Origin: an uncultured Spirochaetota bacterium
GTDB taxonomy: Bacteria > Spirochaetota > Spirochaetia > Treponematales > Rectinemataceae
DNA length: 64,000 nt
Direction of reading: 5' to 3'
Assembly (NCBI GenBank): GCA_903821875.1
Contig: CAIJMU010000187.1
Coordinates: forward strand, 22,905-86,904
Part shown: positions 17,686-36,976 of the stretch, piece after piece
Layout of the letters: each line of letters opens with the position of its first letter
Position numbering within the stretch: position 1 is the first letter of the stretch
Translations under genes and position numbers: made by a program
Notes under the pieces: generated by a model
Told to the model about the DNA's origin: nothing
The model's input: the letters and a program-made list of their open reading frames with translations, nothing else
Databases searched by the model: none

Positions 17686-18855
17686 CTACTTCCCGATCGT
17701 CCCACCGCCCTGGAAAAAGCGCTCGAGGGCCAGGGCTACACCTCCGAGGGCGGGAAACTCCGGGTCGAGGCTCGAGCGTTTGATCTCACAGGGACGGTCG
17801 TTGGCCTCGACACGGCGGGCGACCTCCGAAAAGAGCGCTGAATCCCTGAAGGCCGAGCCGTAGAGGGTGACGACCGAGGGGTCGCAGAGTTCGATGGCAT
17901 TGCCCAGAGCCCGCGCAAAGTGGCTGGCCAGGAGGGCAAAGGCCTCCGGATCGCGGACTGAGAGTGCAGCGCAGAGGGTCTCGACAGTGGAACCCTGCAT
18001 CGAAAGGGCCAGTCCAAGGGCCTGGGCAGACACGAGGGACTCGAGGCAGCCCCTGCGCCCGCAGTAGGGGCAGGGGGGACCATCGGCTGCCACGAAGGTG
18101 TGACCGAGTTCCCCCGCCCGGTTGTGGGCACCCGACCAGGGCAGTCCACCCGGAGTCCAGGCGGCACCGACGCCAGGCCCGTACTTTACCAGGAGGAGGC
18201 CGGCGGGGGGGCTTTTTTTCATATCCGTGAGGAGGAGTTCCGCAACTGAAAGAGCCCTGACATTGTTGTTGACCGACACAGGCACGCCGAGGGCTGCCTC
18301 GAAGGGCTCCCTGATCGGTACAGTCCCCTCCCAGAGGCGCGGCTCCCGGAGGGACAGACCCGAATCCGGATCGACCCGTCCGGTGACACCGACTCCTGCG
18401 CCCAGGACCCCGGCCGCAGCTGCGCCCTCCCCTCCAAGAAGTTCGCCCACCGCCACTGCAGCGGCCTTGGCGAAAACCGTCCCCGGCTCCGCTCCCCTGG
18501 GTACCTTGGGCAGCGAGATGTTCCGTACTCCAAGCACCGTGCCGCCGAGGTCGGAGACGAGGACCTGGATCCTCTCCTGGTCGATGCCGACTCCAAGAAG
18601 CTTTCCCGCCTCGTTCCGTATGCGGAGGAAGATCTTCCGGCGTCCGGCCTTGCCGTTGCCTCCCGAGGAACCCGCCTCGACGATGAGCCCCTCCTCGAGG
18701 AGCTCGCCGACGAGGATCGTCACCGAGGCCCGGGTCAGGCCGATGCTCGAAGCCAGGTCATTGCGTGCAATTGCTCCATTCCTGTGGACGAGGCTGAGGA
18801 GGCCGAAGCGGTTGCGCTTCCTGATGTCACTGGCGCTCAGGCCGCGATGCGTCAT
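17686..18855 (-). CDS. ROK-family transcriptional repressor
   Basis: A 389-residue NagC/XylR/Mlc-type regulator. Residues ~5-70 are a winged helix-turn-helix (RNRFGLLSLVHRNGAIARND, then LASSIGLTRASVTILVGELL), followed by a ROK sugar-kinase-like domain with the family zinc motif CPYCGRRGCLES and GELGHTF. The ATG at 18855 has GGAGGG just upstream and overlaps the DUF4867 stop (ATGA), so the longer frame is discarded. It lies divergent from the sulfoquinovose operon across a region with two near-identical palindromes. ROK repressors are usually released by a pathway sugar; here SQ, sulfofructose or a related sugar is the natural guess. Regulation of the operon is inferred from position and shared operators. 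Confidence 0.88.
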   Translation of the reverse strand: MTHRGLSASDIRKRNRFGLLSLVHRNGAIARNDLASSIGLTRASVTILVGELLEEGLIVEAGSSGGNGKAGRRKIFLRIRNEAGKLLGVGIDQERIQVLVSDLGGTVLGVRNISLPKVPRGAEPGTVFAKAAAVAVGELLGGEGAAAAGVLGAGVGVTGRVDPDSGLSLREPRLWEGTVPIREPFEAALGVPVSVNNNVRALSVAELLLTDMKKSPPAGLLLVKYGPGVGAAWTPGGLPWSGAHNRAGELGHTFVAADGPPCPYCGRRGCLESLVSAQALGLALSMQGSTVETLCAALSVRDPEAFALLASHFARALGNAIELCDPSVVTLYGSAFRDSALFSEVARRVEANDRPCEIKRSSLDPEFPALGGVALALERFFQGGGTIGK

Positions 18856-19541
18856 GCGCCCTCCAGGGGCGTGACCGCTCGGTTGGGACCGCGCAGCGTC
18901 GGCAAGACCCCCTGGTCGACGAGGACCCTCCTCTCGGGATGGGCGATGATCCACTTGTTGCGCTTGCGGAGAAGGGGATCTCCCGCCGGGCGCTCTCCTG
19001 GCCCGAACTCCAGGTTGGTGCCAGAGGCCAGGATGATGGCGCTCCGGAAGCCCCCGGCATGGACACGGCAGGGTGCCAGGTGAAGGGTTCCCGAAAACAG
19101 TTCGACTGCCTGCCCACGGAGCAGGACGAGGCCAACAACCTTCGAGGAATCGAAGCCCGGTCCCGGAGACTCCTGGGACAGGTCTCCGCGAAGCCCTACA
19201 AGGAGGACAAGGTCATCGGCAGCAACCACGACCTCGCTACATTTGTGATATTCGAGGCCGTTGAGCGTTGAATTGCGGCCCGCGCAGTAGCCCACCTGGA
19301 TCGGCATGCCACCCATATGGACCGCAGCGAGGATCCTTGCGTCCCCTGTCGCCTCGAGGGGAGGATGGGAGGGGACATAGGCGACGCCTTCGGCGGGAAT
19401 GGCCACGCTCGCCTCGAGGGCTGCCACGAGAGCTGACCAATCTCCCGGGACGGGCGCGCCATAGGGAGCGAGGGCCCCTTCCTCCAGACCGAAAAGCCCG
19501 ACCGAAGGATTGGCCGCGCGAAGCCGCTCGAGGATGCTCAA
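18852..19541 (-). CDS. DUF4867 family protein
   Basis: A ~230-residue protein with the DUF4867 signature GMPIQVGYCAGRNSTLNGLE followed by YHKCSEVVVAADDLVLLVGL. The fold is expected to be a ureidoglycolate-lyase-like cupin; the biochemical function is not established to my knowledge. The TTG at 19541 is preferred as start because AGGAGG lies six bases upstream, whereas the longer frame has no ribosome site. It is the first gene of the ROK transcript and sits beneath the palindrome at 19598-19616. Its tight coupling to the regulator and position beside a sulfosugar operon suggest a role in handling a sugar intermediate, perhaps as epimerase or mutarotase; this is speculation. Confidence 0.75.
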   Translation of the reverse strand: MSILERLRAANPSVGLFGLEEGALAPYGAPVPGDWSALVAALEASVAIPAEGVAYVPSHPPLEATGDARILAAVHMGGMPIQVGYCAGRNSTLNGLEYHKCSEVVVAADDLVLLVGLRGDLSQESPGPGFDSSKVVGLVLLRGQAVELFSGTLHLAPCRVHAGGFRSAIILASGTNLEFGPGERPAGDPLLRKRNKWIIAHPERRVLVDQGVLPTLRGPNRAVTPLEGA

Positions 19542-19597
19542 TCGATGCCTCCTAGTGACACTCTCCGAGAGTAGCACAGCCTCGCTCCTTACGCAAA

Positions 19598-19616
19598 TAA
19601 GTTAAATACTTTCACG
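19598..19616. promoter_or_regulatory. Candidate ROK operator, leftward side
   Basis: TAAGTTAAATACTTTCACG matches 15 of the first 19 bases of the perfect palindrome at 19694-19714, about 96 bp away. It lies upstream of the DUF4867-ROK transcript and could provide autoregulation or a second site for looping. Confidence 0.6.
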
Positions 19617-19694: not shown

Positions 19695-19714
19695 AAGTTA
19701 AAGACTTTAACTTA
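19694..19714. promoter_or_regulatory. Perfect 21-bp palindrome, candidate ROK operator
   Basis: The core AAGTTAAAGACTTTAACTT (19695-19713) is a perfect palindrome and extends by one T/A pair on each side to 21 bp. It starts at the -10 of the operon promoter and ends 11 bp before the first ATG. Similar sequences are at 19598-19616 and 37048-37068. The ROK protein encoded next door is the likely binder. Confidence 0.75.
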
Positions 19715-19725: not shown

Positions 19726-20481
19726 ATGGCCAGCAAGGACGGCAAGCGATTCCACGCCCGCGACAGCCGCGCGGTACTGCGTGAGGTCTTCAATCAGCGG
19801 GACTCGAACCTCGAGTTCCTCTCCCTCGCCGAGCTCGACATCGTCGATGCCCGCTCGACGAATTTCTGCCACAAGCGGGAGGAGACCCTGGCCTTCAACC
19901 TCGCGGGACCGGCGACGGTGCGCGTGGAGGGGCAGGCTTTTGAACTCGAGCACTACGACATACTCTACATTTCCAGGGGAGCGGAATTCGTCGTAGAGGC
20001 CGGCACCGAACCCGCCCACCTCTACCTCTACCGTGCCCTCGCAGACAAGGTTCATCCCGTCCAGCACATGAAATGGAAGGAGGGCAGGGAAGATCCCGCG
20101 CGCCTCCGCCTCCTCACGCGCAAGAAGGTCTACAAGATGTTCGATGTCGGGGAAAAGGCCGACAGGTTCATGGCGGGCTATACCTTCTATGATGATCATT
20201 CCCGCGCCTGGCCACCCCATAACCATACCGACCAGGAAGAGTGCTACTCCTTTATCGAGGGTTCGGGTGCCATGCAGGTTTACGAGGATGACGAAAAGCT
20301 CACCTTCGTGAAGGATGTGCAGGTCGGATCCCACGTAAGCATTCCCCTGCTCAACTACCATCCGGTGTTCAGCCACGAGGAACCGCTCTGCTTTATCTGG
20401 TGCATCGCCGGTGAACGCTACTGGGTCGGCGACAAGGACAAGTCCTTCATGGACGGTACGTCGAAAAAGGTGACGACATGA
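19726..20481 (+). CDS. KduI/IolB-type cupin isomerase, probable sulfoquinovose isomerase
   Basis: A 251-residue protein of the KduI/IolB family (uronate or deoxyglucuronate ketol-isomerases) with a bicupin fold. The metal ligands are visible as His165, His167, Glu172 (HNHTDQEECY) and His212 (NYHPVFSH). Nothing else in the operon is inositol- or pectin-related. Because the next genes form a sulfofructose transketolase route and no YihS-type isomerase is present, the logical substrate is sulfoquinovose, converted to 6-deoxy-6-sulfofructose. The family is certain; the substrate is inferred from context. AGGGGAG precedes the ATG, and its stop overlaps the next start (ATGA, 20478-20481). Confidence 0.8.
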   Translation: MASKDGKRFHARDSRAVLREVFNQRDSNLEFLSLAELDIVDARSTNFCHKREETLAFNLAGPATVRVEGQAFELEHYDILYISRGAEFVVEAGTEPAHLYLYRALADKVHPVQHMKWKEGREDPARLRLLTRKKVYKMFDVGEKADRFMAGYTFYDDHSRAWPPHNHTDQEECYSFIEGSGAMQVYEDDEKLTFVKDVQVGSHVSIPLLNYHPVFSHEEPLCFIWCIAGERYWVGDKDKSFMDGTSKKVTT

Positions 20482-21353
20482 CGGCAAAGGTCCCCGAGAC
20501 GCCTGCCAGCGCGGCGGAAATTTCAGCCCTTGCAGCTAGGGCGAAGTCAGTGCGTCGCGCCTGCCTCCAGTCCATCGCCACCCTCGGCATAGGCCACGTG
20601 GGTGGCTCCATGTCCGTCGTGGAGATACTCGTAGCCCTGTATTTCCGCCACCTCCGTCTTGATCCGGCTGACAGCAAGGCTGCAGACCGTGACTGGTTTG
20701 TCCTTTCCAAGGGACACGCGGGTCCCGCCCTCTACGCCACCCTCGCCGAAAAGGGCTACCTCCCGAAAGAACTCCTTTCAACACTGAACAAGGGCGGGAC
20801 CTCCCTGCCGAGCCACGCTGACAGAAAGCTCACTCCCGGCGTCGACATGAGCACGGGCTCGCTCGGGCAGGGCTTTTCGGCCGCCACGGGCATCGCCCTC
20901 GGCCTCAGGCTGGACGGCCCCCGCTCAGACGGGAGCACCAAGCGCTGCTGGGTGATCATCGGAGACGGGGAGAGCGACGAGGGCCAGGTCTGGGAGGCCG
21001 CATCCTTTGCGGCCCACTACGGCCTCGACAACCTCATCGCTTTCACCGACGCGAACAAATTCCAGATCGACGGCAGCACCGAGGCCGTGATGAACCTCCG
21101 CGACCTCTGTGCCAAGTGGGAGGCCTTCGGCTGGAAAGCCCTCCGCGTCGATGGCCACGACTTCGCTGCCCTTGACCGGGCCATCCTCGCGGCAAAGACA
21201 GAAAAGGGCAGACCAGTGATGATCATACTCGATACGATCAAGGCCAAGGGCGTCCCCGCCCTCGAAGGCAGGGCCGAGAGCCACAACGCGCCCTTCACCG
21301 CCGTCGAAATGGCCGCAGTGGATGCTGCCAGCGGGGAGGCCCTCCATGGCTGA
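20478..21353 (+). CDS. sqwG: Transketolase N-terminal subunit, probable sulfofructose transketolase
   Basis: A 291-residue thiamine-diphosphate-binding half of a split transketolase. GHVGGSMSVVEIL and KGHAGPALYATL carry conserved active-site histidines, and GDGESDEGQVWEAASFA followed by FTDANKFQIDG is the ThDP/Mg motif. Split transketolases are common, but here the partner genes are an RpiB-type isomerase and an acylating sulfoacetaldehyde dehydrogenase. That matches the published transketolase-dependent sulfoglycolysis (sulfo-TK) pathway, in which this enzyme moves two-carbon units from sulfofructose and from 4-deoxy-4-sulfoerythrulose to glyceraldehyde 3-phosphate, giving xylulose 5-phosphate. 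The gene symbol follows that pathway as I remember it. It overlaps its partner by 8 bp. Confidence 0.88.
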   Translation: MTAKVPETPASAAEISALAARAKSVRRACLQSIATLGIGHVGGSMSVVEILVALYFRHLRLDPADSKAADRDWFVLSKGHAGPALYATLAEKGYLPKELLSTLNKGGTSLPSHADRKLTPGVDMSTGSLGQGFSAATGIALGLRLDGPRSDGSTKRCWVIIGDGESDEGQVWEAASFAAHYGLDNLIAFTDANKFQIDGSTEAVMNLRDLCAKWEAFGWKALRVDGHDFAALDRAILAAKTEKGRPVMIILDTIKAKGVPALEGRAESHNAPFTAVEMAAVDAASGEALHG

Positions 21354-22284
21354 CCGTGAACTTCGCGCAGTCTACGCGCAAAAGCTGGTGGCTTTGGCCG
21401 CCAGGGATCCCCGGGTCTGCGTCCTCGAAGCTGATCTGGCCAAGGCCACTGGTACCGGTCCCTTTGCAGCGGCCTACCCCGAGCGTTTCTTCAACGTCGG
21501 TGTCGCTGAGGCCAACCTTGTCGGCGTCGCCTCCGGCCTTTCTGCCACCGGCAGGAAACCCTTCGCGGCCACCTTCGGTTGCTTTGCCAGCCGCCGCGCC
21601 TTCGACCAGTTCTTCCTTTCAGCCAATTATGCGGGTCTTGAGGTAGTCCTTGTCGGTACCGACCCCGGTGTCACGGCAGCCTACAACGGCGGCACCCACA
21701 TGCCCCTCGAGGATCTGGCCCTCATGCGCACGGTGCCCGGCCTCGCCATCGTCGAGCCCGCCGATCCGACATCCCTCGAAGCTGCCATCACCCTCGCCCT
21801 CGAGCGGAAGGGCTGCACCTACCTCAGGCTCCAGAGGAAGAGCGCTCCGGAACTCTACCAGGCGAATGAGCATTTCGAATTCGGGAAGGCCAAGCTGCTC
21901 AGGCGTGGAAAGGATGTCACCCTCGTCGCATTGGGCGCCCTTATGGTCGCCGAAGCGCGCAAGGCAGCGGAGACCCTCGCCGCCGAAGGCATCGAAGCCA
22001 CCCTGGTCGATGCCTTCACGCTGGCGCCCCTGGACGGAAAACTCCTCCTCGAACTCGCCGGCGAGACCAGGCGCATGGTCAGCTGCGAGAACCACCGCGT
22101 CACCGGAGGCCTCGGCTCGGCGCTCGCGGAGCTGCTAGCAGAAGCGGGAGTTCCCGCACGGCTCGCGCGCATCGGTGTCGCTGCCGATCTCTTCGGCGAA
22201 GTCGGAACCCAGGACTGGCTAGCGGAGCACTTCGGACTGACCGCCCCCCATATCGCCGCTGCGGCACGGGATCTGGTGAAATAG
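21346..22284 (+). CDS. sqwH: Transketolase C-terminal subunit
   Basis: A 312-residue partner subunit with the pyrimidine-binding domain (FFNVGVAEANLVGVASGLSA, with the catalytic Glu in GVAEAN; AATFGCFASRRAFDQF) and the C-terminal transketolase domain (VTLVALGALMVAEARKAAET). The ATG at 21346 lies inside the end of the N-terminal gene and follows GGGGAGG, so the two subunits are produced together. It is expected to form the heterotetrameric enzyme that performs both two-carbon transfers of the sulfo-TK pathway. A housekeeping pentose-phosphate role cannot be excluded on sequence alone, but the operon argues against it. Confidence 0.88.
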   Translation: MADRELRAVYAQKLVALAARDPRVCVLEADLAKATGTGPFAAAYPERFFNVGVAEANLVGVASGLSATGRKPFAATFGCFASRRAFDQFFLSANYAGLEVVLVGTDPGVTAAYNGGTHMPLEDLALMRTVPGLAIVEPADPTSLEAAITLALERKGCTYLRLQRKSAPELYQANEHFEFGKAKLLRRGKDVTLVALGALMVAEARKAAETLAAEGIEATLVDAFTLAPLDGKLLLELAGETRRMVSCENHRVTGGLGSALAELLAEAGVPARLARIGVAADLFGEVGTQDWLAEHFGLTAPHIAAAARDLVK

Positions 22285-22317
22285 GGTACTGGGGCACTTC
22301 CCTAGAAGGAGACAAGC

Positions 22318-22794
22318 ATGAAGTTGGCAATTGCATCTGACCTTTCCGGATTCCCGCTTAGGCAGGAGATCGTGAAGCACCTGAAGGAAAACCATCCCGA
22401 TATCGAGGTGATCGACTTCGGCATCGAGGACGCTGACCATCCCCAGCCCTATTTCGTACAGGCGCCCAAGGTCGCCACCGCCATCCAGAAGGGCGAGGCT
22501 GAAAAGGGCATCCTCATCTGCGGCACCGGCCAGGGCATGGCCATCGTCGCGAACAAGCACAGGGGCGTGTACGCCTGCGTGGTCGACGATGTCTTTTCGG
22601 GCGAAAGGGCGAAGATCGTCAACAACTCCAATGTCATCACGATGGGCGGCTGGATCACCGCGCCCTTCCTCGGCTGCCAGATCGTGGACGCCTGGCTTTC
22701 CATGTCCTTCACCCAGAAAATGGAATTCAAGAAGGACTTCCTCACCAATGCCTTCAACAAGGTCGTCGAGATCGAGGCGGAGCAGTTCAAATGA
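22318..22794 (+). CDS. sqwI: RpiB/LacAB-family isomerase, probable sulfoerythrose isomerase
   Basis: A 158-residue RpiB-type aldose-ketose isomerase. MKLAIASDLSGFPLR and the active-site Cys68 in ILICGTGQGMAIVANK are present, followed by NNSNVITMGG. In the sulfo-TK pathway an enzyme of this family converts 4-deoxy-4-sulfoerythrose to 4-deoxy-4-sulfoerythrulose between the two transketolase steps. A ribose-5-phosphate or sugar-phosphate substrate is the alternative by family. GAAGGAGA precedes the ATG. Its stop overlaps the next start (ATGA, 22791-22794). Confidence 0.87.
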   Translation: MKLAIASDLSGFPLRQEIVKHLKENHPDIEVIDFGIEDADHPQPYFVQAPKVATAIQKGEAEKGILICGTGQGMAIVANKHRGVYACVVDDVFSGERAKIVNNSNVITMGGWITAPFLGCQIVDAWLSMSFTQKMEFKKDFLTNAFNKVVEIEAEQFK

Positions 22795-24233
22795 GCGCGA
22801 CTTACACGGTGAGCGACAGCGACGACGGCAGGCTCATAGCGGGTCTTGTCGCCAAGGCGCGTGCCGCTCAGGCTATCGCTGCCACCTGGGACCAGGAGCG
22901 CATCGACGAGGTCTGCCTCGCCGTGGGCTGGGCTGTCTACAACGACGCGAACATCCGTGTCATGGCTCGTGCCGCAGTCGACGAGACGGGCATGGGTGTC
23001 TTCGAGGACAAGCTCACCAAGCACAAGAACAAGGTATTGGGAGTACTCAGGGACATCAAGACGGCCAGGACTGTGGGTTGTATCGACTATGACGAAGCGA
23101 AGGGCATCATGAAATTCGCCAAGCCAGTCGGCGTAGTCGGTGCCCTCGCCCCCGTCACCAACCCGACCGCGACACCCTCCTCCAATGGCCTGTCCATCCT
23201 CAAAGGCCGCAACGCCGTCATCTTCGCCCCCCACCCCAAGGCCAGGGGCGCATCGAAGCTGGCCTGCGACTTCATGAGGGAAGCGCTCGGGAAGGTCGGA
23301 GCCCCCGAGGACCTGGTACAGTGCATCGAAGAGCCCTCGATCGAGCGTACCGGCGAGCTGATGAGGCAGGTGGACCTCGTGGTGGCCACCGGCGGCGGGC
23401 CGATGGTAAAGGCCGCCTATTCCTCCGGCACGCCGGCCTTTGGCGTCGGTCCTGGCAATGCTGTGCAGTTGCTCGCCGAGGACGCCGATCCTGTCGACGC
23501 CGCCGCGAAGATATCGCTCAGCAAGGCCTTTGACAACGCAACCTCCTGCTCGAGCGAGAATTCGGTGGTAGCCCACGCCGCTGTCTACGATGCCTTTGTC
23601 GCTGCGATGAAGGAAAAGGGTGCCTACCTCTGTACCGCCGACGAGAAAACCCGCCTCCGCGCCTGGCTCTGGCCCGTCGGCAAGGACGGCCACGAGGCCC
23701 TCAATCCGAAAGTGATCGCCCGCACCGCGATGGTCGTCGCAGAGGGCGCGGGCATCAAGGTGCCGGATGGAACAAGGGTCCTCATGGTGGAGGCCCAGCT
23801 GCCGCGAAGGGGCGGAGAAGCAGTGGACAAGTGGGCCCAGGAAAAGATCTCCCCCGTCCTGGCATTGTGGAAGTGCCCCGATTTCCACAGTGGCCTCGAA
23901 GCCCTCGTGCTCATCACCGATGCCTGCGGCACAGGCCACTCCTCGGGTCTCTTCAGCCAGAAGGACGAGTACATACAGGCGATGGGACTGACCATGCGCT
24001 CGAGCCGGATCATGGTCCGCCAGGGCATGGCCTCGGGCAATGGGGGCACCTTCGCCAACGGCATGCCCTCTACCGTCACCCTGGGCTGCGGCAGCTGGGG
24101 CGGAAACATCACCACTGAGAACATCCACTGGAAGCACTTCATCAACGTGACCTGGCTGGCCCTCCCCCTTCCGATGAACCGCCCCTCCGACGAGGAGATC
24201 TTCGGAAGCCACTGGGCCAGGTACGGGAAGTAA
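22791..24233 (+). CDS. Acylating sulfoacetaldehyde dehydrogenase-like enzyme
   Basis: A 480-residue CoA-acylating aldehyde dehydrogenase. The catalytic Cys lies in FDNATSCSSENSVV; a Rossmann-type GVVGALAPVTNPTATPSSN segment and VVATGGGPMVKAAYSSGTPA are typical of the AdhE/SauS/EutE branch. The late segments (ACGTGHSSGLFS, ASGNGGTFANGMPSTVTLGCG, GSWGGNITTENIHWKHFINV) resemble the sulfoacetaldehyde dehydrogenase SauS subfamily rather than EutE. It is expected to oxidise sulfoacetaldehyde plus CoA to sulfoacetyl-CoA, linking the transketolase product to the ATP-forming ligase next door. Substrate is inferred from subfamily and context. Confidence 0.85.
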   Translation: MSATYTVSDSDDGRLIAGLVAKARAAQAIAATWDQERIDEVCLAVGWAVYNDANIRVMARAAVDETGMGVFEDKLTKHKNKVLGVLRDIKTARTVGCIDYDEAKGIMKFAKPVGVVGALAPVTNPTATPSSNGLSILKGRNAVIFAPHPKARGASKLACDFMREALGKVGAPEDLVQCIEEPSIERTGELMRQVDLVVATGGGPMVKAAYSSGTPAFGVGPGNAVQLLAEDADPVDAAAKISLSKAFDNATSCSSENSVVAHAAVYDAFVAAMKEKGAYLCTADEKTRLRAWLWPVGKDGHEALNPKVIARTAMVVAEGAGIKVPDGTRVLMVEAQLPRRGGEAVDKWAQEKISPVLALWKCPDFHSGLEALVLITDACGTGHSSGLFSQKDEYIQAMGLTMRSSRIMVRQGMASGNGGTFANGMPSTVTLGCGSWGGNITTENIHWKHFINVTWLALPLPMNRPSDEEIFGSHWARYGK

Positions 24234-24237
24234 GACC

Positions 24238-25362
24238 ATGAAGCTCCACGAGCACGAGGCCAAGGAAGTCTTCGCAAAGGCAGGGATTCCGGTCCCGCGT
24301 TCCTTCCTCGCCCTGGACGCAGCGGCGGCAAGCCAGGCAGCAACTACGATCGGTTTCCCCTGCGTCCTGAAGTCCCAGGTCCTCATGGGCGGACGCGGAA
24401 AGGCCGGGCTCATCAGACTCGTCAAGGATGCTCCAGCGGCCCAGGAAGCCGCGCTGGAGCTCTTCGCAAGCCCCCATGGCGTCCACAAGCTCCTCGTCGA
24501 AGAAGCGGTCGCAATTGAACGGGAAATCTACCTTTCCATCACCGTCGATCCGGTCGCCGCGGAAGCGGTCGTGCTGGCCTGCGCCCAGGGTGGGGTGGAG
24601 ATCGAGGAACTCGCGGCCACCGCACCCGAAAAGATCTTCCGCGAGAGCGTGAGCCTTTCCGAGGGCTTCCTTCCCTTCAGGGCGCGAAACCTCTGCATGT
24701 CCCTCGGACTCTCGGGCGACCTTGCCAAACAGGCTGCTGCCATCCTCGACGCCCTGTGGAAGTGCTTCCGCGCCAACGATGCCGAGCTCGTGGAAATCAA
24801 TCCCCTCTTTGTAACCAAATCCGGCACCCTCATCGCCGGGGACGGCAAGCTCCTCATCGACGATTCCTCCCTGTTCAGGCAGGCAGGCCGCGAAGCGGGG
24901 CGGGATTACTACGATTCAGATGCCGCCTTCGAGGCAGCAAAGGAGGGCATACCCTACCTCCAGTTCGACGGTGACATCTCGCTGATGTGCGCCGGAGCGG
25001 GCCTTACCACCGTCGTCTACGACCTCATCGTCGACGAAGGCGGAACGGTCGCAAACTACCTCGAGTTCGGCGGACCCAACTACCGCAAGGCCGTCCGTGC
25101 CATGGAGCTCTGCCTCAAGAACGATCCCAAGGTAATATTAATTGTGACCTTTGGCACCATAGCCCGGGCCGACGTCATGGCCGAAGGTATCACTGACGCC
25201 ATCGCACGGCTCAAGCCGAAATGCCCGATCATCCCCTGCATCAGGGGCACAGGCGAGGACAAGGCCGTGGAGATGCTCCGCGCGGCTGGCCTCGAACCCC
25301 TCTTCGACACCGAGGAAGCAGTGCGCAAGGCTGTCGCACTGGCCAAGGGAGGCTATCGATGA
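24238..25362 (+). CDS. ADP-forming acyl-CoA ligase, beta (ATP-grasp) subunit
   Basis: A 374-residue SucC-type subunit: KLHEHEAKEVFAKAGIPVPR at the N-terminus, the ATP-grasp loop VLMGGRGKAGLI, VEINPLFVTKSG with the metal-binding Glu/Asn, and a C-terminal CoA-ligase fold (YLEFGGPNYRKAV). Succinyl-CoA synthetase in the citrate cycle is the usual family role. Here the pair directly follows an acylating sulfoacetaldehyde dehydrogenase, so it probably converts sulfoacetyl-CoA, ADP and phosphate to sulfoacetate, CoA and ATP, giving the pathway a substrate-level phosphorylation. Its stop overlaps the alpha-subunit start (ATGA, 25359-25362). Confidence 0.85.
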   Translation: MKLHEHEAKEVFAKAGIPVPRSFLALDAAAASQAATTIGFPCVLKSQVLMGGRGKAGLIRLVKDAPAAQEAALELFASPHGVHKLLVEEAVAIEREIYLSITVDPVAAEAVVLACAQGGVEIEELAATAPEKIFRESVSLSEGFLPFRARNLCMSLGLSGDLAKQAAAILDALWKCFRANDAELVEINPLFVTKSGTLIAGDGKLLIDDSSLFRQAGREAGRDYYDSDAAFEAAKEGIPYLQFDGDISLMCAGAGLTTVVYDLIVDEGGTVANYLEFGGPNYRKAVRAMELCLKNDPKVILIVTFGTIARADVMAEGITDAIARLKPKCPIIPCIRGTGEDKAVEMLRAAGLEPLFDTEEAVRKAVALAKGGYR

Positions 25363-26261
25363 GCGTCTTCATCGACCGCGATGACACTATCCTCATCCAG
25401 GGCATCACCGGCAGCGAGGGTTCCTTCTGGACCAGGCACATGATCGAACTCGGCACCACCGTCGTTGTCGGCGTAACCCCCGGCAAGGAAGGCCAGAGCG
25501 TCGAGGGCATCCCCGTCTACCACTCGGTGCGCCGGGCTGTCGCCGCACATCCAGCCAATGCTGCCATGATCTTCGTGCCTCCGCGCTTTACCAAGGACGC
25601 CGTCTTCGAGGCCCTCGACTCAGGCATCAGGAAGATCGTCACGATAGCCGAGGGGATTCCCCTCCACGAATGCCTCGAGATCAGGGCTGCCGCCCGCGAC
25701 CGGGGCGCCCGCGTGGTCGGCGGCAATACCTCGGGCGTCATCAGTCCCGGCCGCGCCATGATGGGCATGTTCCCCTACTGGATAGAACGGGTCTACAAAC
25801 CAGGGCGCATCGGCATCATGACACGCTCCGGAAGCCTCACGAACGAAGTGACCGCCATGGTCGTAGCCGCAGGTTTCGGCGTCTCGAGCCTTATCGGTGT
25901 GGGTGGCGACTCCGTGCCCGGCACGCGCTTTGCGGAACTCCTTCCCGACTTCCAGGCCGACACTGGCACTGACGCGGTCGTCATAATTGGTGAGTTGGGC
26001 GGAACGATGGAGGAGGAAGTGGCCGAGGCCATGGAAGCCCGGCGCTTTAACAAACCCCTTGTGGCCTTCCTCGGCGGGCGCAACGCCCCCAAAGGCAGGC
26101 GCATGGGCCACGCAGGAGCCATCGTCACGGGAGGCAAGGGTACGGTCGAAGGCAAGACAGCCACCCTCAGGAAAGCTGGCGCCCTGGTAGCCGCACGCCC
26201 CCGTGAGGTCGGCAGCCTCCTTTTCGAACTCCTGGGCAGAAATCCTGGGTCGAAGGCCTGA
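25359..26261 (+). CDS. ADP-forming acyl-CoA ligase, alpha subunit
   Basis: A 300-residue SucD-type subunit. It has a CoA-binding Rossmann region (ILIQGITGSEGSFWTRHMIE), the segment GIMTRSGSLTNEV, the GVGGDSVPGT loop and the phospho-His251 in GHAGAIVTGGKGT, all conserved. It completes the ligase that would recover ATP from sulfoacetyl-CoA. The start at 25359 is set by overlap with the beta subunit. No citrate-cycle gene is nearby, which supports a pathway-specific role. Its stop and the transporter start share bases (TGATG at 26259-26263). Confidence 0.86.
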   Translation: MSVFIDRDDTILIQGITGSEGSFWTRHMIELGTTVVVGVTPGKEGQSVEGIPVYHSVRRAVAAHPANAAMIFVPPRFTKDAVFEALDSGIRKIVTIAEGIPLHECLEIRAAARDRGARVVGGNTSGVISPGRAMMGMFPYWIERVYKPGRIGIMTRSGSLTNEVTAMVVAAGFGVSSLIGVGGDSVPGTRFAELLPDFQADTGTDAVVIIGELGGTMEEEVAEAMEARRFNKPLVAFLGGRNAPKGRRMGHAGAIVTGGKGTVEGKTATLRKAGALVAARPREVGSLLFELLGRNPGSKA

Positions 26262-27805
26262 TGGCTGCATCCGGGGGGGATTCCAGGGCGAGGTCACCGG
26301 AGAACCGCCATACCGGTCCCCAGTCAGGCCCCCAGCCCATCCTGCCGCCCCGCGAGCGCAAGGCCCCCTCCCCCCAGCGCCGCCTCGCGATACTCGGCAT
26401 TGGGATAGTCGTACTTGTGCTTGTATTCGGGGCACGCATCCCTGAGTCGATCCGTACCGTTCACGGCGCGACCCTCGCCCCTTCTGGCCAGCACGCCCTT
26501 GCCGTCCTGGCCTTTGCCCTCGTGCTCTGGATCGGGGAGGCCCTCCCCTTCCACATGACAGGCTTTATCGCCATGGGACTCCTTGCCCTCGTGAATGTCC
26601 AATCCTGGTCGGAGCTCGTCAAGACCGGCTTTGGCGACGAAGCGACAGTCTTCTTCATCGGCGTACTCGCCCTTGCCTCTGCATTGGGTCGATCGGGCCT
26701 CGCCGCCCGCCTCGGCCGCCTCGTCCTCCGTTTCGCAGGAGGCTCGACGCGCGCCCTGGTCTTCTGGTTCCTGGTTGCAGGTGCCTTCCTCGCGATGTGG
26801 GTGACGGCCCTGGCCGCGGCTGCCCTCATGCTGCCCCTGGCCCGAGGCATCCTCCGTGACGAGGGCGACGAGCCGGGAAGCAAGTTCGGCGCTGCCCTCA
26901 TGCTAGCCGTGGCCTTCGGCCCCCTTGTCGGCGCCTGCGGCGCGCCCTCGGGCTCGGGCTCCAATCCCGTCGCCCTCCGTTTTTTGGCCGACATCGCCCA
27001 ATTCCATATCAGTTACCTCGACTGGATGCGTATCGGCATTCCCGTCGTCATCGCCCTCCTCCCCCTGGCCTGGGCTGCGATCCTCCTCCTCTTCCCCCCC
27101 GAACGCAGGCGGCTGCGTAGCCCAGGCACGAATCTCCTGGCGGCAGGTTCCCAGAAGGCGACGCCGCTCTCTCGCGACGAAAAGGCTACGGGCATCGTCT
27201 TTCTCCTCGTCGTCGCCTGCTGGCTCGGAGCGCCCTGGCTTGAAAAGCTCGTAAGTGTGAAGATATCCCTGGCCCTCGTGGCCGCCCTCGGCGCGGCCGC
27301 CCTCTTCCTTCCCGGCCTCACTTCCTTCCGCTGGAAGGAGCTTGAAAAGGACATGGACTGGGCAGGCATCCTCCTCATCGCAACGGGTATCGCCCTCGGC
27401 ACGGCCCTCTACAAGAGCGGCGCGGCAGCCTGGGCCGCATCCCTGGTGCTGGGAGGCATCGGCTCCCTCTCGCCCTTCTGGCGCATCGCGGCGGTGGTCG
27501 TGGGAGTGCTGGTGGTCAAGGTGGTCTTCTCGTCCAACACGCTGACGGGGACCATCATAGTACCCCTGATCCTGGCCCTCGGGGTCACGCTGGGCATCGA
27601 CGCGCGCCTGCCCGCCCTGGCGGCAGCCTTTACAGCCAACCTCGCGGTCATCCTGGTTACGACGAGTCCGGTCAACGTGCTTCCATGGTCGACAGGCTAC
27701 TTCTCCATCGCCGACATGGCCAGGACCGGCTTGGTCTTCGCCCTGCCCGCAGCCCTGGCGCTGGCAGCGATCTTCAGCCTCCTCGGACCGCGGCTACTAA
27801 TGTAG
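26261..27805 (+). CDS. DASS/SLC13-type anion transporter
   Basis: A 514-residue integral membrane protein with about 11-12 hydrophobic segments after a ~45-residue polar N-terminus. Segments such as GFGDEATVFFIGVLALASAL, MWVTALAAAALMLPLARGIL and SNTLTGTIIVPLILALG followed by VTTSPVNVLPWSTGYF fit the divalent anion:sodium symporter (SLC13/ArsB-like) superfamily. As the last gene of the operon whose end product should be sulfoacetate, it is probably the sulfoacetate exporter; uptake of an organic acid or sulfonate is the alternative. Translationally coupled to the ligase. Confidence 0.8.
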   Translation: MAASGGDSRARSPENRHTGPQSGPQPILPPRERKAPSPQRRLAILGIGIVVLVLVFGARIPESIRTVHGATLAPSGQHALAVLAFALVLWIGEALPFHMTGFIAMGLLALVNVQSWSELVKTGFGDEATVFFIGVLALASALGRSGLAARLGRLVLRFAGGSTRALVFWFLVAGAFLAMWVTALAAAALMLPLARGILRDEGDEPGSKFGAALMLAVAFGPLVGACGAPSGSGSNPVALRFLADIAQFHISYLDWMRIGIPVVIALLPLAWAAILLLFPPERRRLRSPGTNLLAAGSQKATPLSRDEKATGIVFLLVVACWLGAPWLEKLVSVKISLALVAALGAAALFLPGLTSFRWKELEKDMDWAGILLIATGIALGTALYKSGAAAWAASLVLGGIGSLSPFWRIAAVVVGVLVVKVVFSSNTLTGTIIVPLILALGVTLGIDARLPALAAAFTANLAVILVTTSPVNVLPWSTGYFSIADMARTGLVFALPAALALAAIFSLLGPRLLM

Positions 27806-31833: not shown

Positions 31834-33912
31834 TTAGACCAACGAAGCCGCCCTGAAACAGCCCTCCCAGCGTGAGCCTCTGCGATACCAGGCCGCCGGC
31901 TGGCCAAGCGGGGCCGCAGCCTCGACCCAGGCCCTTCCAGGAGCTGCTTCCCCGGTCCACAGATGTACCCAATTGCCATCAATGATCCTGGCGCGGCGCG
32001 AGGTGGCGCCCTTCCGTAGCACCGGGGCGACCAGGAGGTCGGGACCACAGAGGAACTGGTCCTGGATGCGCCAGGCATGAGGATCGCCCTCGTCCGCGAA
32101 GAAGAGGGGCCGGAGGATGGGGGTACCGCGCGTGGAGCATTCATGGGCCAGGTCCCGGAAATAGGGTGAAAGGGCGACGCGGAGGCGGCCCATGCGGGCC
32201 AGGCCTTCCAGGGTCCCGGGATCCGAATCGAACTGCCAGTTGCTCTGGGGCCTGTTGCCCTCGTGGCTCCGCATCCAGACCGTAAAGGCCGCCATCTCCG
32301 CCCAGCGCAGGAAGAGCTCCTTGGTCCGCTTCAGGTGGAAGAGTGTCGTATAACCGCCGATGTCCGAATGGTGGTAGCCATGGCCCAGCATCGCCAGCGA
32401 GAGGGCCGCGGGGATCACGCTGGCTATGCCGTCGTCCTTCGACCAATCGACGTTCTGGTCTCCCGCCCACATGTGATGGCACCAGCGCTGGCTGCCCGAG
32501 TAGCCAGCCCGCATGAAGAAGGTCGCCTTCCCCAGCATGCCGGCTTCCTCGATAGCCTCGTAGTTGACCCGCGCCCAGAGGCTGGGCCAGAGGTTGTGGG
32601 CGTATTCCGCGGGGCTGCCGTCGAAGAGCGTACAGTCGGCAGGCAGGTACTCGCCGAAGTCGGCCATCCACCCGAGCATGCCCTGGCCCAGGAGATTCCT
32701 CTTGATCAGCTCCTTGAACCATGTCCTGGCCGCCGGGTTGGTGAGGTCGGGAATGCCGGCCTCGAACTCGCCGGCGTCCATGCGGTAGCTCGTGCCAGCG
32801 TGGCTTTTGACCAGGAGGCCGAGCCGGTCGAGTTCCCCGAAGATCGGCTTGTCAGAGGCGAAGTAGCAGTTGACATAGCCTAAGAAGGCGATCCCCTTTT
32901 CTCCTAATTGGGCACATTCGCGCTTCAGGTCAGGATAGAGGGAAGTATCGAGTTCCCAGTTCCAGGAAAGCCGCTTTCCGAAGCCCGTGTAGCGCACGCC
33001 TGCCCAGTCCTGGGCCCAGATGGCAGAGACAGGCACGCCGGCCGCACGCGCGGCCTGGGCCTTCGCCGTGCAGGTCTCAAGACCGCCCTGGATGCCCAGG
33101 GTGACTCCCTCGTGCACATAGTCAGGCGGTTCCGGCTGGAGGCCGAAATAGCGGGCGGTTTCCGAGGCGAGATCCTGCATGCCGGCGGCGGAGCCGAACA
33201 CGAGCCTCCGGGGTTTCTGCCTCGAGAGGAGGATGGCGCGGTCTTTGCCCCGGAAATCGAATTCCGACCAGGCATCGGTCTCGAGGTGGACACGGAGCCT
33301 CCGCGAGGTCGCATAACTCGGCTGGGGAAAGAAGGTCCACCACCAGGTGCCTCCCGCGCCGTCGGCCAGGTCGGCCTTCCAGGTTGTGAGGGTGAGCTTG
33401 TTGCGGCCCACTCCCTGCTCGCTCGTCCACAGGGGCAGCTTCCGCCCCCGCAGGTTGAAACGGGAGAACTGCTCGCCACAGCCGTAGATGCCCTCGCCCG
33501 GTTCAGTGACCAGGGAAAGCCTGTAGCGGTTGGCCCACTCGGGCCCTTCCAGGAATTCCAGGACGAGGCTTTCGGCTTCTCCGGCTCCACCCGGCAGCTC
33601 AGCGCGGCCGGAGTCCTCGGGACCCCGCCTCGGGCCCTTCTCCATGGCTATCGCAATCCGGACGAGGGCTCCACCAGGGCTTCGGAGAAGGACTTCAGCT
33701 GTCTCGCCCCGGCTCGAAAGCTCAGCCAGAGGCAGGGGCGTCCAGCCGGAGAGGCGGTCCTTCGTGCGGAAGTTGCCGCGATACATCCGGTAGCTCGCCT
33801 CGCCCTGGGCGAGGGCCAGGAAGGGACGCGAGGAGGTATGCGCAATGACGGTCTTCCCGTCGAGGCGAATCTCGAAACCCTCCCCTACCGCAGCCAGCTC
33901 CCAGCGGCCCAT
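31834..33912 (-). CDS. yihQ: Sulfoquinovosidase (GH31, YihQ-like)
   Basis: A 692-residue GH31 retaining alpha-glycosidase that should release sulfoquinovose from SQ-glycerol or plant sulfolipid. The match to E. coli YihQ is close throughout (YGCGEQFSRFNLRGRKLPLW, TSEQGVGRNK, AGDQNVDWS). Numbered from the ATG at 33912, the catalytic nucleophile is Asp418 (GWMADFGEYLP), the acid/base Asp485 (AGDQN), and the sulfonate-recognition residues of YihQ have equivalents Gln301 (WAQDW), Arg314 (FGKR), Trp317 (LSWNW) and Tyr521 (IGGYTT). The spacing to YihQ numbering (288, 301, 304, 405, 472, 508) is constant at +13. No signal peptide, so it acts in the cytoplasm after import. ATG at 33912 follows GAGGTG; a GTG lies three codons earlier. 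Confidence 0.95.
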   Translation of the reverse strand: MGRWELAAVGEGFEIRLDGKTVIAHTSSRPFLALAQGEASYRMYRGNFRTKDRLSGWTPLPLAELSSRGETAEVLLRSPGGALVRIAIAMEKGPRRGPEDSGRAELPGGAGEAESLVLEFLEGPEWANRYRLSLVTEPGEGIYGCGEQFSRFNLRGRKLPLWTSEQGVGRNKLTLTTWKADLADGAGGTWWWTFFPQPSYATSRRLRVHLETDAWSEFDFRGKDRAILLSRQKPRRLVFGSAAGMQDLASETARYFGLQPEPPDYVHEGVTLGIQGGLETCTAKAQAARAAGVPVSAIWAQDWAGVRYTGFGKRLSWNWELDTSLYPDLKRECAQLGEKGIAFLGYVNCYFASDKPIFGELDRLGLLVKSHAGTSYRMDAGEFEAGIPDLTNPAARTWFKELIKRNLLGQGMLGWMADFGEYLPADCTLFDGSPAEYAHNLWPSLWARVNYEAIEEAGMLGKATFFMRAGYSGSQRWCHHMWAGDQNVDWSKDDGIASVIPAALSLAMLGHGYHHSDIGGYTTLFHLKRTKELFLRWAEMAAFTVWMRSHEGNRPQSNWQFDSDPGTLEGLARMGRLRVALSPYFRDLAHECSTRGTPILRPLFFADEGDPHAWRIQDQFLCGPDLLVAPVLRKGATSRRARIIDGNWVHLWTGEAAPGRAWVEAAAPLGQPAAWYRRGSRWEGCFRAASLV

Positions 33913-33922
33913 GCTGTTCACC

Positions 33923-34750
33923 TCATCCCTTCACGCCGCCGGCGGACACGCCCCGGATGAGGAAGCGCTGCATCGAGACGGTGAAAATAAATATAGGCAG
34001 TAGTAGTATGGTCCCGCCAGCGCAGACCTGGCCCCAGGTCAGGATGTCCGAGCCTATGAGGCTGTTGATGGAGACAGGCGCAGTCCTTGCATTGATGCCC
34101 GTGAGGATGAGGGCGTAGAGGAACTCGTTCCAGCTGTTGATGAAGGCGAAGACCGCCCCAACCACGAGGCCGGGCGAGACGATGGGAAGGAAGACGCGGC
34201 GGAACACCCCGAAACGTGTGCAGCCATCCACCATGGCAGCCTCCTCGTAGCTCTTGTCCACTGCCGTGAAGAAGGGGAGGAGGAGCCAGATCACGTAGGG
34301 CACGTTGAAACTCGTGTGCGCAAGCGTGAGTCCGAAGACCGTGTCGCGGATGCCGAGGGACTTGAACATCAAGTACAGGGCAATGACCAGGGAGATCTGC
34401 GGCAGCATGCGGAAAACCAGGAAGCTGTAGGCCAGGAGGTTCCTGCCCTTGAACCTGAAGCGCGATATCCCGTAGGCGGCCATCGCGGCGACGATGATCG
34501 ACGCTGCAGTCGACAGGAGGCCGACCTCGACCGAGGTCCACAAGGACTTCACGAAGCCGGGACGGGCGAGAACCAGTTCGTAGCTCCGGAGCGAGAGCTG
34601 GGAGAATTCGAAGGGCTTCGCCGAGAGGATGATGACGTCCCTCCGGAAGCCATTCAAGAGGGTGATCCCGATCGGGAAGAGCTCCACAATCAGCACCAGG
34701 AAGGCTGCGACGGCGATCGCGATATTCACGATTGGACGGTTTCGCTTCAT
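33923..34750 (-). CDS. Sugar ABC transporter permease (MalG type)
   Basis: A 275-residue permease with six membrane segments and the EAA loop YEEAAMVDGCTRFGVFRRVF LP typical of carbohydrate importers. The N-terminus MKRNRPIVNIAIAVAAFLVL is the first membrane helix. The ATG at 34750 overlaps the preceding permease stop (TGATG), which rules out the longer frame. Lying directly before the sulfoquinovosidase, it most likely imports SQ or SQ-glycerides, as analogous ABC importers do in other SQ loci. No ATPase is encoded in this unit. Confidence 0.88.
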   Translation of the reverse strand: MKRNRPIVNIAIAVAAFLVLIVELFPIGITLLNGFRRDVIILSAKPFEFSQLSLRSYELVLARPGFVKSLWTSVEVGLLSTAASIIVAAMAAYGISRFRFKGRNLLAYSFLVFRMLPQISLVIALYLMFKSLGIRDTVFGLTLAHTSFNVPYVIWLLLPFFTAVDKSYEEAAMVDGCTRFGVFRRVFLPIVSPGLVVGAVFAFINSWNEFLYALILTGINARTAPVSINSLIGSDILTWGQVCAGGTILLLPIFIFTVSMQRFLIRGVSAGGVKG

Positions 34751-35724
34751 CAGTTGCCGGCCTTCCGCTCGAGTTCTTCGAGACTCATGTTGCGGCGCAC
34801 GAGGGTAAGTGCGAAGACCACGGACAGGACGAGGAGGAAGATGGCCATCGCACTGGCCATGCCGACCTTCATGTAGGTAAAGGCCTGCTTGTTGGCGTAG
34901 AGGGAGAACAGGAGGGTCGCTGTCCCGGGGCCGCCTTCGGTCATGGCGAAGACCTCGCTGAAGATGCGGAGCGCGTCGATGAGGCGGAGGAGGAGGGCTG
35001 TCATGATGGTCGGCGTGAGCAGCGGCGTGATGATGATCCTCACACGCTGCCAGTAGCGCGCCCCGTCGATCTCGGCGGCCTCGAGGAGTTCGCCGGGAAT
35101 GTTGCTGAGGCCAGCGTAGATGAGCATGAACATGAAGGGCCACATTCGCCAGATGTCCTGGAGGATGACTGCCGCGTAGGCCCAGCCCGGCGTACCAAGC
35201 CAGGAGGTCTCCGGAATGCCCAGGGCCACGAGGATCTGTGCGAGGGGGCCGTAGCGCGGCTGGAGCATGAAGCGCCAGATGATGCCAGAGAGGACAGGGA
35301 GAAAGAACACAGGAAGAAGGAGGAGGGTCCGTACAAAGCCCGCGCCGAAGAACTCACGGTTGAGGAGGAGGGCAGCGGCGTAGCCCAGGATCAGCTCGAT
35401 GGGAAGCGCGATGAAGACAAAGCCCAGCTGGAGCCTGAGCGAGTTCCAGAATTCGCTGTCGGTGAAGAGTGTCAGGTAGTTTCCCATGCCCACAAAGACC
35501 CTGGGGCCGAGTCCCTCCGAGAGGGGCCAGTTCCAGGTCGACACGAAAAGGGAAAACAGTATTGGGAATATCAGTACAGCGAAGACCACCAGGAGGGCAG
35601 GAGCGAGAAAGAGAAGGGGCGCCCCCCCCCTCCCCGACCGCTTCGCGCGTGTCGGGAAAGGCGTAGCGCCCCCTGTTTCGTCTTTCCCGCTGCTGCCGCT
35701 AGTAGCCGGCTTTGGAGAGGACAT
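34750..35724 (-). CDS. Sugar ABC transporter permease (MalF/UgpA type)
   Basis: A 324-residue permease with a ~35-residue polar N-terminus, six membrane segments and the EAA loop LLEAAEIDGARYWQRVRIIITPLL. It pairs with the downstream permease to form the membrane channel of the proposed sulfoquinovose importer. Its start overlaps the end of the binding-protein gene by 26 bp; a later start is possible but would remove only the polar N-terminus. Confidence 0.86.
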   Translation of the reverse strand: MSSPKPATSGSSGKDETGGATPFPTRAKRSGRGGAPLLFLAPALLVVFAVLIFPILFSLFVSTWNWPLSEGLGPRVFVGMGNYLTLFTDSEFWNSLRLQLGFVFIALPIELILGYAAALLLNREFFGAGFVRTLLLLPVFFLPVLSGIIWRFMLQPRYGPLAQILVALGIPETSWLGTPGWAYAAVILQDIWRMWPFMFMLIYAGLSNIPGELLEAAEIDGARYWQRVRIIITPLLTPTIMTALLLRLIDALRIFSEVFAMTEGGPGTATLLFSLYANKQAFTYMKVGMASAMAIFLLVLSVVFALTLVRRNMSLEELERKAGN

Positions 35725-36976
35725 CGTTGGTCTCTTTCACGATGGCCTTTACAGCGTCAGCGGTGGGCAGCTGTCCGGTGATGCCCTGGACCCAGTACTT
35801 CTTCACGATGTCCTGGACCTGGGCCACTTCCTTGAACCTCGGGCGGGCTACGGCATATTTCATGGAATCGGCGATGGCAGCGAGCCAGGGCATCTTCTTG
35901 GCATACTGGGGATCGGTGAGGACATCGGCGCGGGCCGGGATGGCGTTGCCTTCGACGACCTTCTGGGCCATGGCCTTGGAGGTCCACCAATAGGCGAACT
36001 CGGCGCCGCCAGCCTTGTTCTTGGCTGCGACAGGAATGCCGACTGCCCAGGCACCGCGGACGGCTACGCGCTTGGACGGGCCTCCGGGGGGCGCCGAGTA
36101 ATAGACCTTGCCGGAGACCAGGGAGGTATCGGGATTCTCATAGCTGGCGATGTAGGAAGGCCAGTGGAACTGGGTCCATGCGCCCTTGGGGTCGGTGGTG
36201 AAGGAAGCAATGCGCTCGTTGTGTGCCCAGGTCTCGGAGCCCTTGGGGGACATGGTCATGAGCCTCTTGTAGAACTCCATTCCAGTGACAGCCTTGGTCT
36301 CGTCGAGGACGACCTTGGGCTTGCCGTTGACCCAGTTGATGAAACTGGTGCCGAAGGACTCCCACATGTAGATGGCTTCGGCATGGACGCCGGCTGCACC
36401 GCCGTTGAAGGGACCAAAGCCACCGACGCCGAGGGCGCTGAAGAAGCTGACCTCGTCATCGAGCTGCTTGAAGGTTACCGGCACAACGAGTTCGTAGCCA
36501 TACTTGGCCTTGAAGTCCTTCTTGTACTGCGGATTGTCGATCAGGTCCTTCTTGGTGAACCACACATAGATGTTGCCGTTGATCGGGAAGGCGATGAGCT
36601 TGCCATCCCAGGTGCCGACGTCGAGCATGGCCGGGGTCACGCTGTCCTTCGGGGTCTTCTTGAAGACCTTGCCGTCGGGAAGGCTGTCCCAGGTTGACAT
36701 GAGGCTCGCGAAAACGGGGATGTTGCCCTCGTCCAAGGGAACGACATCGTAGTCGCTTGAGGTGGCGGTAACGCCGACCGAGGTCTTGGTAAGGACCTGG
36801 GGCGGGGCGACCATCTCGACTTCGACCTTGTAGCCGGTGGCTTTCTCGAAGTCGGGGATATTGGCCTGGATGATCTTGGCCAGGGGGTCGTCCCAGAGCA
36901 GGACCTTGATGGACTGCGAACTTACCGCGACAGCCATGGACGCGAGAACGAGCGCAGCGAGGATGAGCTTTTTCAT
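35699..36976 (-). CDS. Sugar-binding protein of the proposed sulfoquinovose importer
   Basis: A 425-residue family-1 extracellular solute-binding protein with signal sequence KKLILAALVLASMAVAVSSQ. The mature protein shows the usual features of carbohydrate binders (DVVPLDEGNIPVFASL, DVGTWDGKLIAFPINGNIYV, GAWAVGIPVAAKN). It is the first gene of the importer-SQase transcript: a consensus promoter (37013-37041), an operator-like palindrome (37048-37068) and an AAGGAGG ribosome site precede it. SQ or SQ-glycerol is inferred as ligand from the downstream sulfoquinovosidase. Confidence 0.88.
   Translation of the reverse strand: MKKLILAALVLASMAVAVSSQSIKVLLWDDPLAKIIQANIPDFEKATGYKVEVEMVAPPQVLTKTSVGVTATSSDYDVVPLDEGNIPVFASLMSTWDSLPDGKVFKKTPKDSVTPAMLDVGTWDGKLIAFPINGNIYVWFTKKDLIDNPQYKKDFKAKYGYELVVPVTFKQLDDEVSFFSALGVGGFGPFNGGAAGVHAEAIYMWESFGTSFINWVNGKPKVVLDETKAVTGMEFYKRLMTMSPKGSETWAHNERIASFTTDPKGAWTQFHWPSYIASYENPDTSLVSGKVYYSAPPGGPSKRVAVRGAWAVGIPVAAKNKAGGAEFAYWWTSKAMAQKVVEGNAIPARADVLTDPQYAKKMPWLAAIADSMKYAVARPRFKEVAQVQDIVKKYWVQGITGQLPTADAVKAIVKETNDVLSKAGY

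Follow-up and report, generated by a model that had tools for sequence, protein, structure and literature searches.

A predicted transketolase-type sulfoquinovose gene cluster of a spirochaete with a cupin as its likely sulfoquinovose isomerase

Yearly production of sulfoquinovose (SQ) comes to about 10 billion tons (PMC12890257). One route of its breakdown, the sulfoglycolytic transketolase (sulfo-TK) pathway, has been described in Clostridium sp. MSTE9, with a sulfoacetate branch (SqwD, SqwKL) in Acholeplasma (PMC12890257). Spirochaetes are listed both for sulfo-TK and for the SqwD/SqwKL branch (PMC12890257), and transcripts of sulfo-TK genes, with isethionate given as the product, are reported for a Sphaerochaetaceae genome from the rumen (PMC13219744). 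For the SQ isomerase step only YihS and SqvD are named (PMC9594981, PMC12890257), and the published sulfoacetate-branch set is drawn with the exporter SqwE (PMC11659671). Here we analyse a 64,000-nucleotide stretch (the window) of contig CAIJMU010000187.1 from an uncultured Spirochaetota bacterium, in which an operon of sulfo-TK homologues begins with a gene for a cupin. A first-pass annotation of the window rightly suspected a spirochaete as host, but held that the pathway was known from elsewhere and not from spirochaetes; the two reports above contradict this, and since pathway and sulfoacetate branch are published with Spirochaetes listed, a claim of novelty for spirochaete sulfo-TK fails. 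The cluster is likely a sulfo-TK of the sulfoacetate type, known already in kind and in phylum, with the isomerase as its likely new part. We think it quite probable that the window combines homologues of the sulfoacetate-forming sulfo-TK genes with YihQ, an ABC importer and a ROK regulator, and that the cupin replaces SqvD/SftI. This assessment draws on gene families and their linkage, on the mutual exclusion of cupin and SftI across a spirochaete sample, and on conserved residues and shared sites; from these we infer every reaction, transport direction and regulatory relation given below.

Eight close-set genes on the forward strand fill positions 19726-27805 (Table 1), with overlaps of 4, 8, 4, 4 and 1 bases and gaps of 33 and 4. 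The positions of the open reading frames (ORFs) and the family models bear out the families, tight coupling and overlapping starts of the first-pass annotation, which had counted seven genes. The split SqwGH and the SqwI of the sulfo-TK set are present by homology, the C half of the transketolase not being diagnostic by itself, and SqwD and SqwKL of the sulfoacetate branch are present with scores that all lie under the curated equivalog cut-offs. The Acholeplasma branch (Chu 2023, through PMC12890257 and PMC11659671) has the same split transketolase, RpiB-type isomerase, acylating dehydrogenase and two-part ADP-forming ligase, and the window also has DUF4867 and YihQ, as do related clusters. 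The two differ in that the published branch has SqvD/SftI where the window has the cupin, and is drawn with SqwE where the window has a DASS transporter. No iron-type alcohol dehydrogenase (SqwF type) was found among the eight operon proteins by Pfam scan, no SqwE in the operon, where DASS stands in its stead, and no SftI (model NF048012) among the ten window proteins scanned. Sulfo-TK with a sulfoacetate branch, as first proposed, is still the interpretation that fits best, and the neighbouring YihQ, DUF4867 and importer genes add to its support; the cupin, which had passed unquestioned, is the main misfit to the published gene set.

The cupin has a PF04962 match plus the metal-ligand pattern of the KduI/IolB superfamily, with H165, H167, E172 and H212 as the presumed ligands of an HxH-E-H site; a Pfam scan of it returned KduI and Cupin_2 only. 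Four arginines, R126, R128, R160 and R231, are invariant and may form the sulfonate site. By curated models it is neither KduI nor IolB proper (NF002091, 55 bits against a cut-off of 250; TIGR04378, 35.5 against 205), nor is it among the NF048012 matches. Its nearest solved relatives are uronate isomerases, with 35 bits to the nearest solved KduI. The KduI/IolB uronate isomerases (PF04962) share the fold, presumed metal site and predicted aldose-ketose isomerase chemistry of the window cupin, but it is distant from them in score and stands in its own clade. The cupin likely catalyses the same reaction as SqvD/SftI, of the FucI family, from the same place in the gene set, and likely the same reaction as YihS (PF07221), both of which belong to protein families other than its own. 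The cupin is likely a third SQ isomerase, non-orthologous to the two known ones. Our main argument is that the conversion of SQ to sulfofructose is the step common to the transketolase and transaldolase contexts in which the cupin occurs, if the transaldolases take sulfofructose. There is a parallel in the cupin-type phosphoglucose isomerase (Hansen 2005, as cited in PMC12965863), also a metal cupin that replaces an unrelated isomerase, in that case for glucose 6-phosphate, of which SQ is the sulfonate analogue; if our reading is true, the window adds a further case of a metal cupin taking over hexose isomerisation. There is a small chance that this is an ordinary published sulfo-TK cluster whose cupin its discoverers already knew as the SQ isomerase, since Liu 2021 and Chu 2023 likely drew several clusters. 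Against this, YihS and SqvD are the only enzymes given for the step in the two papers cited above, and no cupin-type SQ isomerase was found in the open literature searched, closed papers being outside its scope. Likewise, the source names among the 120 relatives listed of the 1216 family members (E up to 1e-20) are 5-deoxy-glucuronate, 5-keto 4-deoxyuronate or 4-deoxy-L-threo-5-hexosulose-uronate isomerase, mannose-6-phosphate isomerase-like and hypothetical protein. If true, the reading gives a testable new function to this family, whose named listed members are mostly uronate isomerases.

We surveyed 392 genomes of the phylum, the window's own included. The C-half transketolase was tried as a marker and rejected: relatives at 54-56% identity occur in loci without SqwI (G212, G177, G018), and a paralogue in the window's own genome (C17, 52%) falls inside the same clade as the window SqwH. 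SqwI took its place, counted at 55% identity or more (weaker matches in G068, 47%, and G178, 41%, left out), and was found in 21 genomes, the 20 copies outside the own genome being 55-84% identical to that of the window. A cupin orthologue, counted at 300 bits or more, is present in six genomes, all among these 21; 70 genomes matched at E 0.001, of which 64 were left out as distant KduI-type matches or, in G044, a remnant (at most 37.6 bits, the next match). NF048012 was searched in 26 genomes including all 21 with SqwI. It scores 132-366 bits in the 15 SqwI genomes without the cupin and 0, 0, 0, 0, 22.8 and 65.4 bits in the six with it, so that cupin and SftI are mutually exclusive (15 SftI, six cupin, none with both). 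Scores in all 26 genomes stay below the curated SftI cut-off. The chance figures of 1e-8 and 2e-5 are only a rough guide because the genomes are related. SftI genomes without SqwI at threshold, G318 (431 bits) and G162 (178 bits), were left out of the counts. In 12 of these 15 genomes no more than 7 kb separates the SftI gene from SqwI; in G194 the distance is 26 kb, and in G361 and G044 the two genes are on different contigs. G044 retains, inside a contig, a decayed 62-residue cupin remnant (L038:1462-1650), as expected if cupin and SftI replace one another.

In a tree of 29 C-half transketolases the isomerase type changes six times, at least four of these forced by well-supported branches; L161, which comes from an SftI genome, is the sister of the window's own clade, made up of four cupin rows. 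Left out of the tree were L124, which has both the cupin and an SftI-like gene, L190, which is the L142 locus again, all rows lacking SqwI except L096 and L117, and the SftI genomes G194, G373, G376 and G333. Phylogeny had been named as a check on the transketolase; its C half does group with other SqwI-linked clusters, in a clade that also includes members without SqwI. Two observations concern SftI itself. The SftI-like isomerases of sulfo-TK clusters (FucI-like genes in L162, L169 and L174) form three groups about 25% identical to each other, and in G318 (C80:5649-8890) YihQ adjoins the strong SftI match with no SqwI at threshold, probably as part of another sulfoglycolytic route. As candidates for an SqvD elsewhere in the window's own genome, the FucI-superfamily genes on C8, C88 and C134 were fetched and set aside, the best SftI score being 65 bits, in unlinked genes with no SQ gene recognised beside them by eye.

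A scan of genome contigs with the cupin alignment kept 80 of 95 related loci, of which 20 belong to spirochaetes and 60 to other phyla, among them Acidobacteriota, Verrucomicrobiota, Lentisphaerota and Planctomycetota. Genome searches covered 50 of the loci, and of the other 30 L082, L083, L090 and L095 are covered by G319, G341, G074 and G343. The spirochaete cupins including that of the window form one clade of 21 (SH-aLRT 99). Counting each genome once, YihQ accompanies the cupin in 20 of the 21 (not G407), SqwI in 20 (not G394) and at least one of them in every genome; across the whole sample, 55 of 392 genomes have a YihQ at E up to 1e-100. Where no operon lies near the cupin (L087, L088, L093, L094, L097, L134), a sulfo-TK operon was found elsewhere in the genome (L183, L193, L184, L192, L191, L182); four of these six stretches also contain YihQ, and none contains an SftI-like gene. 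The operon of G378 has no SqwGH genes between those for cupin and SqwI (L048:9570-15823), and another contig carries a split transketolase with its own RpiB, 32% identical to SqwI (L179:8140-10701).

Several findings weigh against the cupin as the isomerase. The window's own genome has proteins of the FucI superfamily and of PF07221 at other places, and some cupin spirochaetes score as high as 101 bits with the SftI model. Outside the phylum the exclusivity is not upheld, an SftI-like protein (254-278 bits) accompanying the cupin in six of 34 genomes; these 34 also lend thinner support, with YihQ in one and SqwI in one. Such findings would suit an operon that serves sulfo-TK on SQ in which the cupin only assists, as a mutarotase or epimerase, and sulfofructose is made by an unlinked enzyme of FucI or YihS type; we regard this as unlikely. 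PF07221 has no match in 12 of the 21 cupin spirochaetes, and in eight of these 12, all with SqwGH or SqwI, no match to the SftI model exceeds 23 bits either, an ordinary FucI being present in two of the eight. The window, L085, L091 and L092 moreover have the cupin alongside DUF4867, which is itself the proposed mutarotase, and the cupin is absent from all seven SftI-type clusters with DUF4867 that were read. No FucI/SftI-superfamily gene was found in the 80 cupin loci by BLAST at 1e-5, and the three SftI-like places read in other phyla (L187-L189) contain neither YihQ, SqwGH nor cupin, L187 having a transaldolase beside the SftI-like gene.

The closeness of the cupin to uronate isomerases among solved proteins, the C-half transketolases of the same clade without SqwI and a dehydrogenase under the SauS cut-off likewise speak for another substrate. 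For the last of these, a grouping with housekeeping or EutE-type enzymes had been named earlier as counter-evidence; judged by score rather than by a tree, the SauS model fits it best (494 bits, cut-off 600). We find it very unlikely that the operon serves some other sulfo-sugar or a non-sulfonated sugar acid, on which cupin, transketolase and RpiB would act, with the SauS-like dehydrogenase acting on a non-sulfonated aldehyde, given the near-constant presence of YihQ with the cupin in spirochaetes. The window's YihQ matches E. coli YihQ over nearly its whole length, with R301, W304, Y508, D405 and D472, which we take to be the sulfonate-site and catalytic residues, aligned identical; its gene lies 4 kb from the cupin operon, and the operon it belongs to is preceded by an operator-like site similar to the one ahead of the cupin.

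With the cupin as SQ isomerase, the pathway would run as follows. The ABC importer would take in sulfoquinovosyl glycerides or SQ, YihQ would free SQ, DUF4867 may open or mutarotate its ring, and the metal-dependent cupin would convert SQ to sulfofructose. SqwGH would then transfer C1-C2 of sulfofructose to glyceraldehyde 3-phosphate, leaving sulfoerythrose, which SqwI would isomerise to sulfoerythrulose, and move a second C2 unit, leaving sulfoacetaldehyde. SqwD would convert this to sulfoacetyl-CoA and SqwKL the latter to sulfoacetate with a gain of ATP, and DASS would likely export the sulfoacetate. The exporter is likely a second departure from the published set after the cupin, because DASS accompanies SqwKL and is absent from SqwF-type clusters. 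It stands with SqwKL in 15 of 16 distinct SqwI loci (L142 and L190 counted as one; the exception, L092, is cut by the contig end) and in none of the six clusters where SqwKL gives way to a gene that matches SqwF in size and position, an assignment confirmed by Pfam in three of the six and also in L124. L177, on a contig of 3610 bases, has DASS without SqwKL.

The cupin also occurs in transaldolase contexts. A transaldolase lies within eight genes of it in 14 of the 60 non-spirochaete loci, nine of them also with an aldehyde dehydrogenase; the transaldolases of L094 and L118, the only two tested, score 254 and 242 bits to ordinary transaldolases against 138 and 158 bits to BmSF-TAL. The other-phyla genome with YihQ is an Opitutae genome whose locus (L181:1775-16152) starts with the cupin and a TTE1925-mutarotase-like gene (263 bits, cut-off 550), continues with a SAF-domain gene and an altronate-dehydratase-type gene, presumably the make-up of the sulfolactate sulfo-lyase SuyAB, and then has a gene with L-sulfolactate dehydrogenase as its best model (270 bits, cut-off 500), a transaldolase, an aldehyde dehydrogenase and a ROK gene; on the other strand are glycerol dehydrogenase-like and glycerol kinase-like ORFs (by eye) and YihQ. 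From its gene content this locus is a candidate for complete SQ breakdown with sulfite release in one organism. On balance we favour the wider view that the cupin founds a third, convergent SQ isomerase family, which was swapped with SqvD/SftI several times in spirochaete sulfo-TK clusters and also supplies sulfoglycolysis of the transaldolase type, in Verrucomicrobiota and perhaps in Acidobacteriota, and that, with the presumed sulfolactate sulfo-lyase of the Opitutae genome, one organism could release the sulfur of SQ as sulfite. Surveys seek SQ degraders by known enzymes, SQ isomerase being counted among the reference proteins of one of them (PMC13372026); a third isomerase family, if true, would mean that they overlook clusters in Spirochaetota, Verrucomicrobiota and perhaps Acidobacteriota or record them as incomplete. 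A Verrucomicrobiota row (L140:408-6904) reads ROK, cupin, aldehyde dehydrogenase, transaldolase, threonine-synthase-type PLP enzyme and 2-hydroxyacid dehydrogenase. L118, L119, L132 and L136 have the PLP enzyme too, which might, as a guess, be a desulfonating lyase.

The full system spans about 17686-37065 and includes, beyond the operon and absent from the first-pass annotation, DUF4867, the ROK regulator, YihQ, the ABC importer and operator-like sites. The pattern GTTAAAGnCTTTAAC, at up to three mismatches, has three sites in the 64,000 bases, with 0.42 expected from shuffles and three of 100 shuffles reaching three. With 0-1 mismatch the palindrome is kept before the cupin ORF in all six nearest loci (L081-L086), beginning 17-31 bases ahead; scanning more distant loci with up to two mismatches allowed gave no such site ahead of the cupin. 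The ROK protein, whose gene adjoins the cupin in the same six loci, would likely repress all three units via this common palindrome. No Rfam match at gathering thresholds was found within the window.

Table 1. Features of the cupin operon and its associated units in the window.
Feature	Position	Strand	Basis and remarks
ROK-family transcriptional regulator	17686..18858	-	PF00480 99.9 bits; start at 18858 likelier, ORF listed to 18954
SqvB/SftX-type DUF4867, proposed sugar mutarotase/ring opener	18852..19577	-	PF16161 179.6 bits (cut-off 28.7); 142.7 bits to PDB 9gyy
Operator-like palindrome before DUF4867-ROK unit	19601..19615	.	2 mismatches
Operator-like palindrome GTTAAAGACTTTAAC before cupin operon	19697..19711	.	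begins 29 bases before cupin start
Cupin, KduI/IolB superfamily, likely sulfoquinovose isomerase	19726..20481	+	PF04962 57 bits (cut-off 23.9)
SqwG, transketolase thiamine-diphosphate half	20478..21353	+	PF00456 183.6 bits
SqwH, transketolase pyrimidine/C-terminal half	21346..22284	+	PF02779, PF02780; trees; start taken at 21346, listed ORF begins 21322
SqwI, RpiB/LacAB-type, predicted 4-deoxy-4-sulfoerythrose isomerase	22318..22794	+	PF02502 129.6 bits
SqwD, predicted CoA-acylating sulfoacetaldehyde dehydrogenase	22791..24233	+	NF047625 SauS 493.9 bits, best model (cut-off 600)
SqwK, ADP-forming CoA-ligase beta	24238..25362	+	PF08442; sucCoAbeta 305 bits (cut-off 375.6)
SqwL, CoA-ligase alpha	25359..26261	+	PF02629, PF00549; PRK05678 327 bits (cut-off 336)
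DASS-family anion transporter, predicted sulfoacetate exporter	26261..27805	+	PF00939 148.6 bits
YihQ, GH31 sulfoquinovosidase	31834..33921	-	665.8 bits to PDB 5aed YihQ; NF007746 814 bits (cut-off 553)
Sugar ABC permease	33923..34750	-	ORF; inner start, ORF listed to 35143; relatives beside YihQ or its binding protein in L083, L084
Sugar ABC permease	34750..35724	-	ORF; relative in L081
Sugar ABC substrate-binding protein	35699..36976	-	ORF; relatives near YihQ in L081, L083, L084
Operator-like palindrome before importer-YihQ operon	37051..37065	.	2 mismatches; 75 bases ahead

The DUF4867 and ROK genes lie upstream of the cupin and are divergent from the operon. DUF4867, of which PDB 9gyy is a solved member, is the SqvB or SftX of sulfoglycolysis clusters, and mutarotase tests on it were negative (PMC11968277). 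The importer genes stand upstream of YihQ on the same strand. Between operon and YihQ are iron(III)-type ABC genes (27834-31698, named by eye); in L083 and L084 YihQ is near the cupin operon with no iron-type ABC set between. A second YihQ-like GH31 in the own genome (G000:C178:32012-34003) is 43% identical to the first. In other loci (L094:4111-5942, L117:13902-14729, L185) the space from the ABC importer to YihQ or a transaldolase repeatedly holds a NagB-like protein, an amidohydrolase-like one and an oxidoreductase of the Gfo/Idh/MocA type, the L117 copy of the NagB-like protein having no Pfam match. Just upstream of the window's importer-YihQ operon, on the same strand, is a GH43-like glycosidase ORF (37088-38086, by eye), and further on two ADP-ribosylglycohydrolase-like ORFs (42551-44050 and 47332-49566) flank a sugar ABC importer and a LacI regulator, again by eye.

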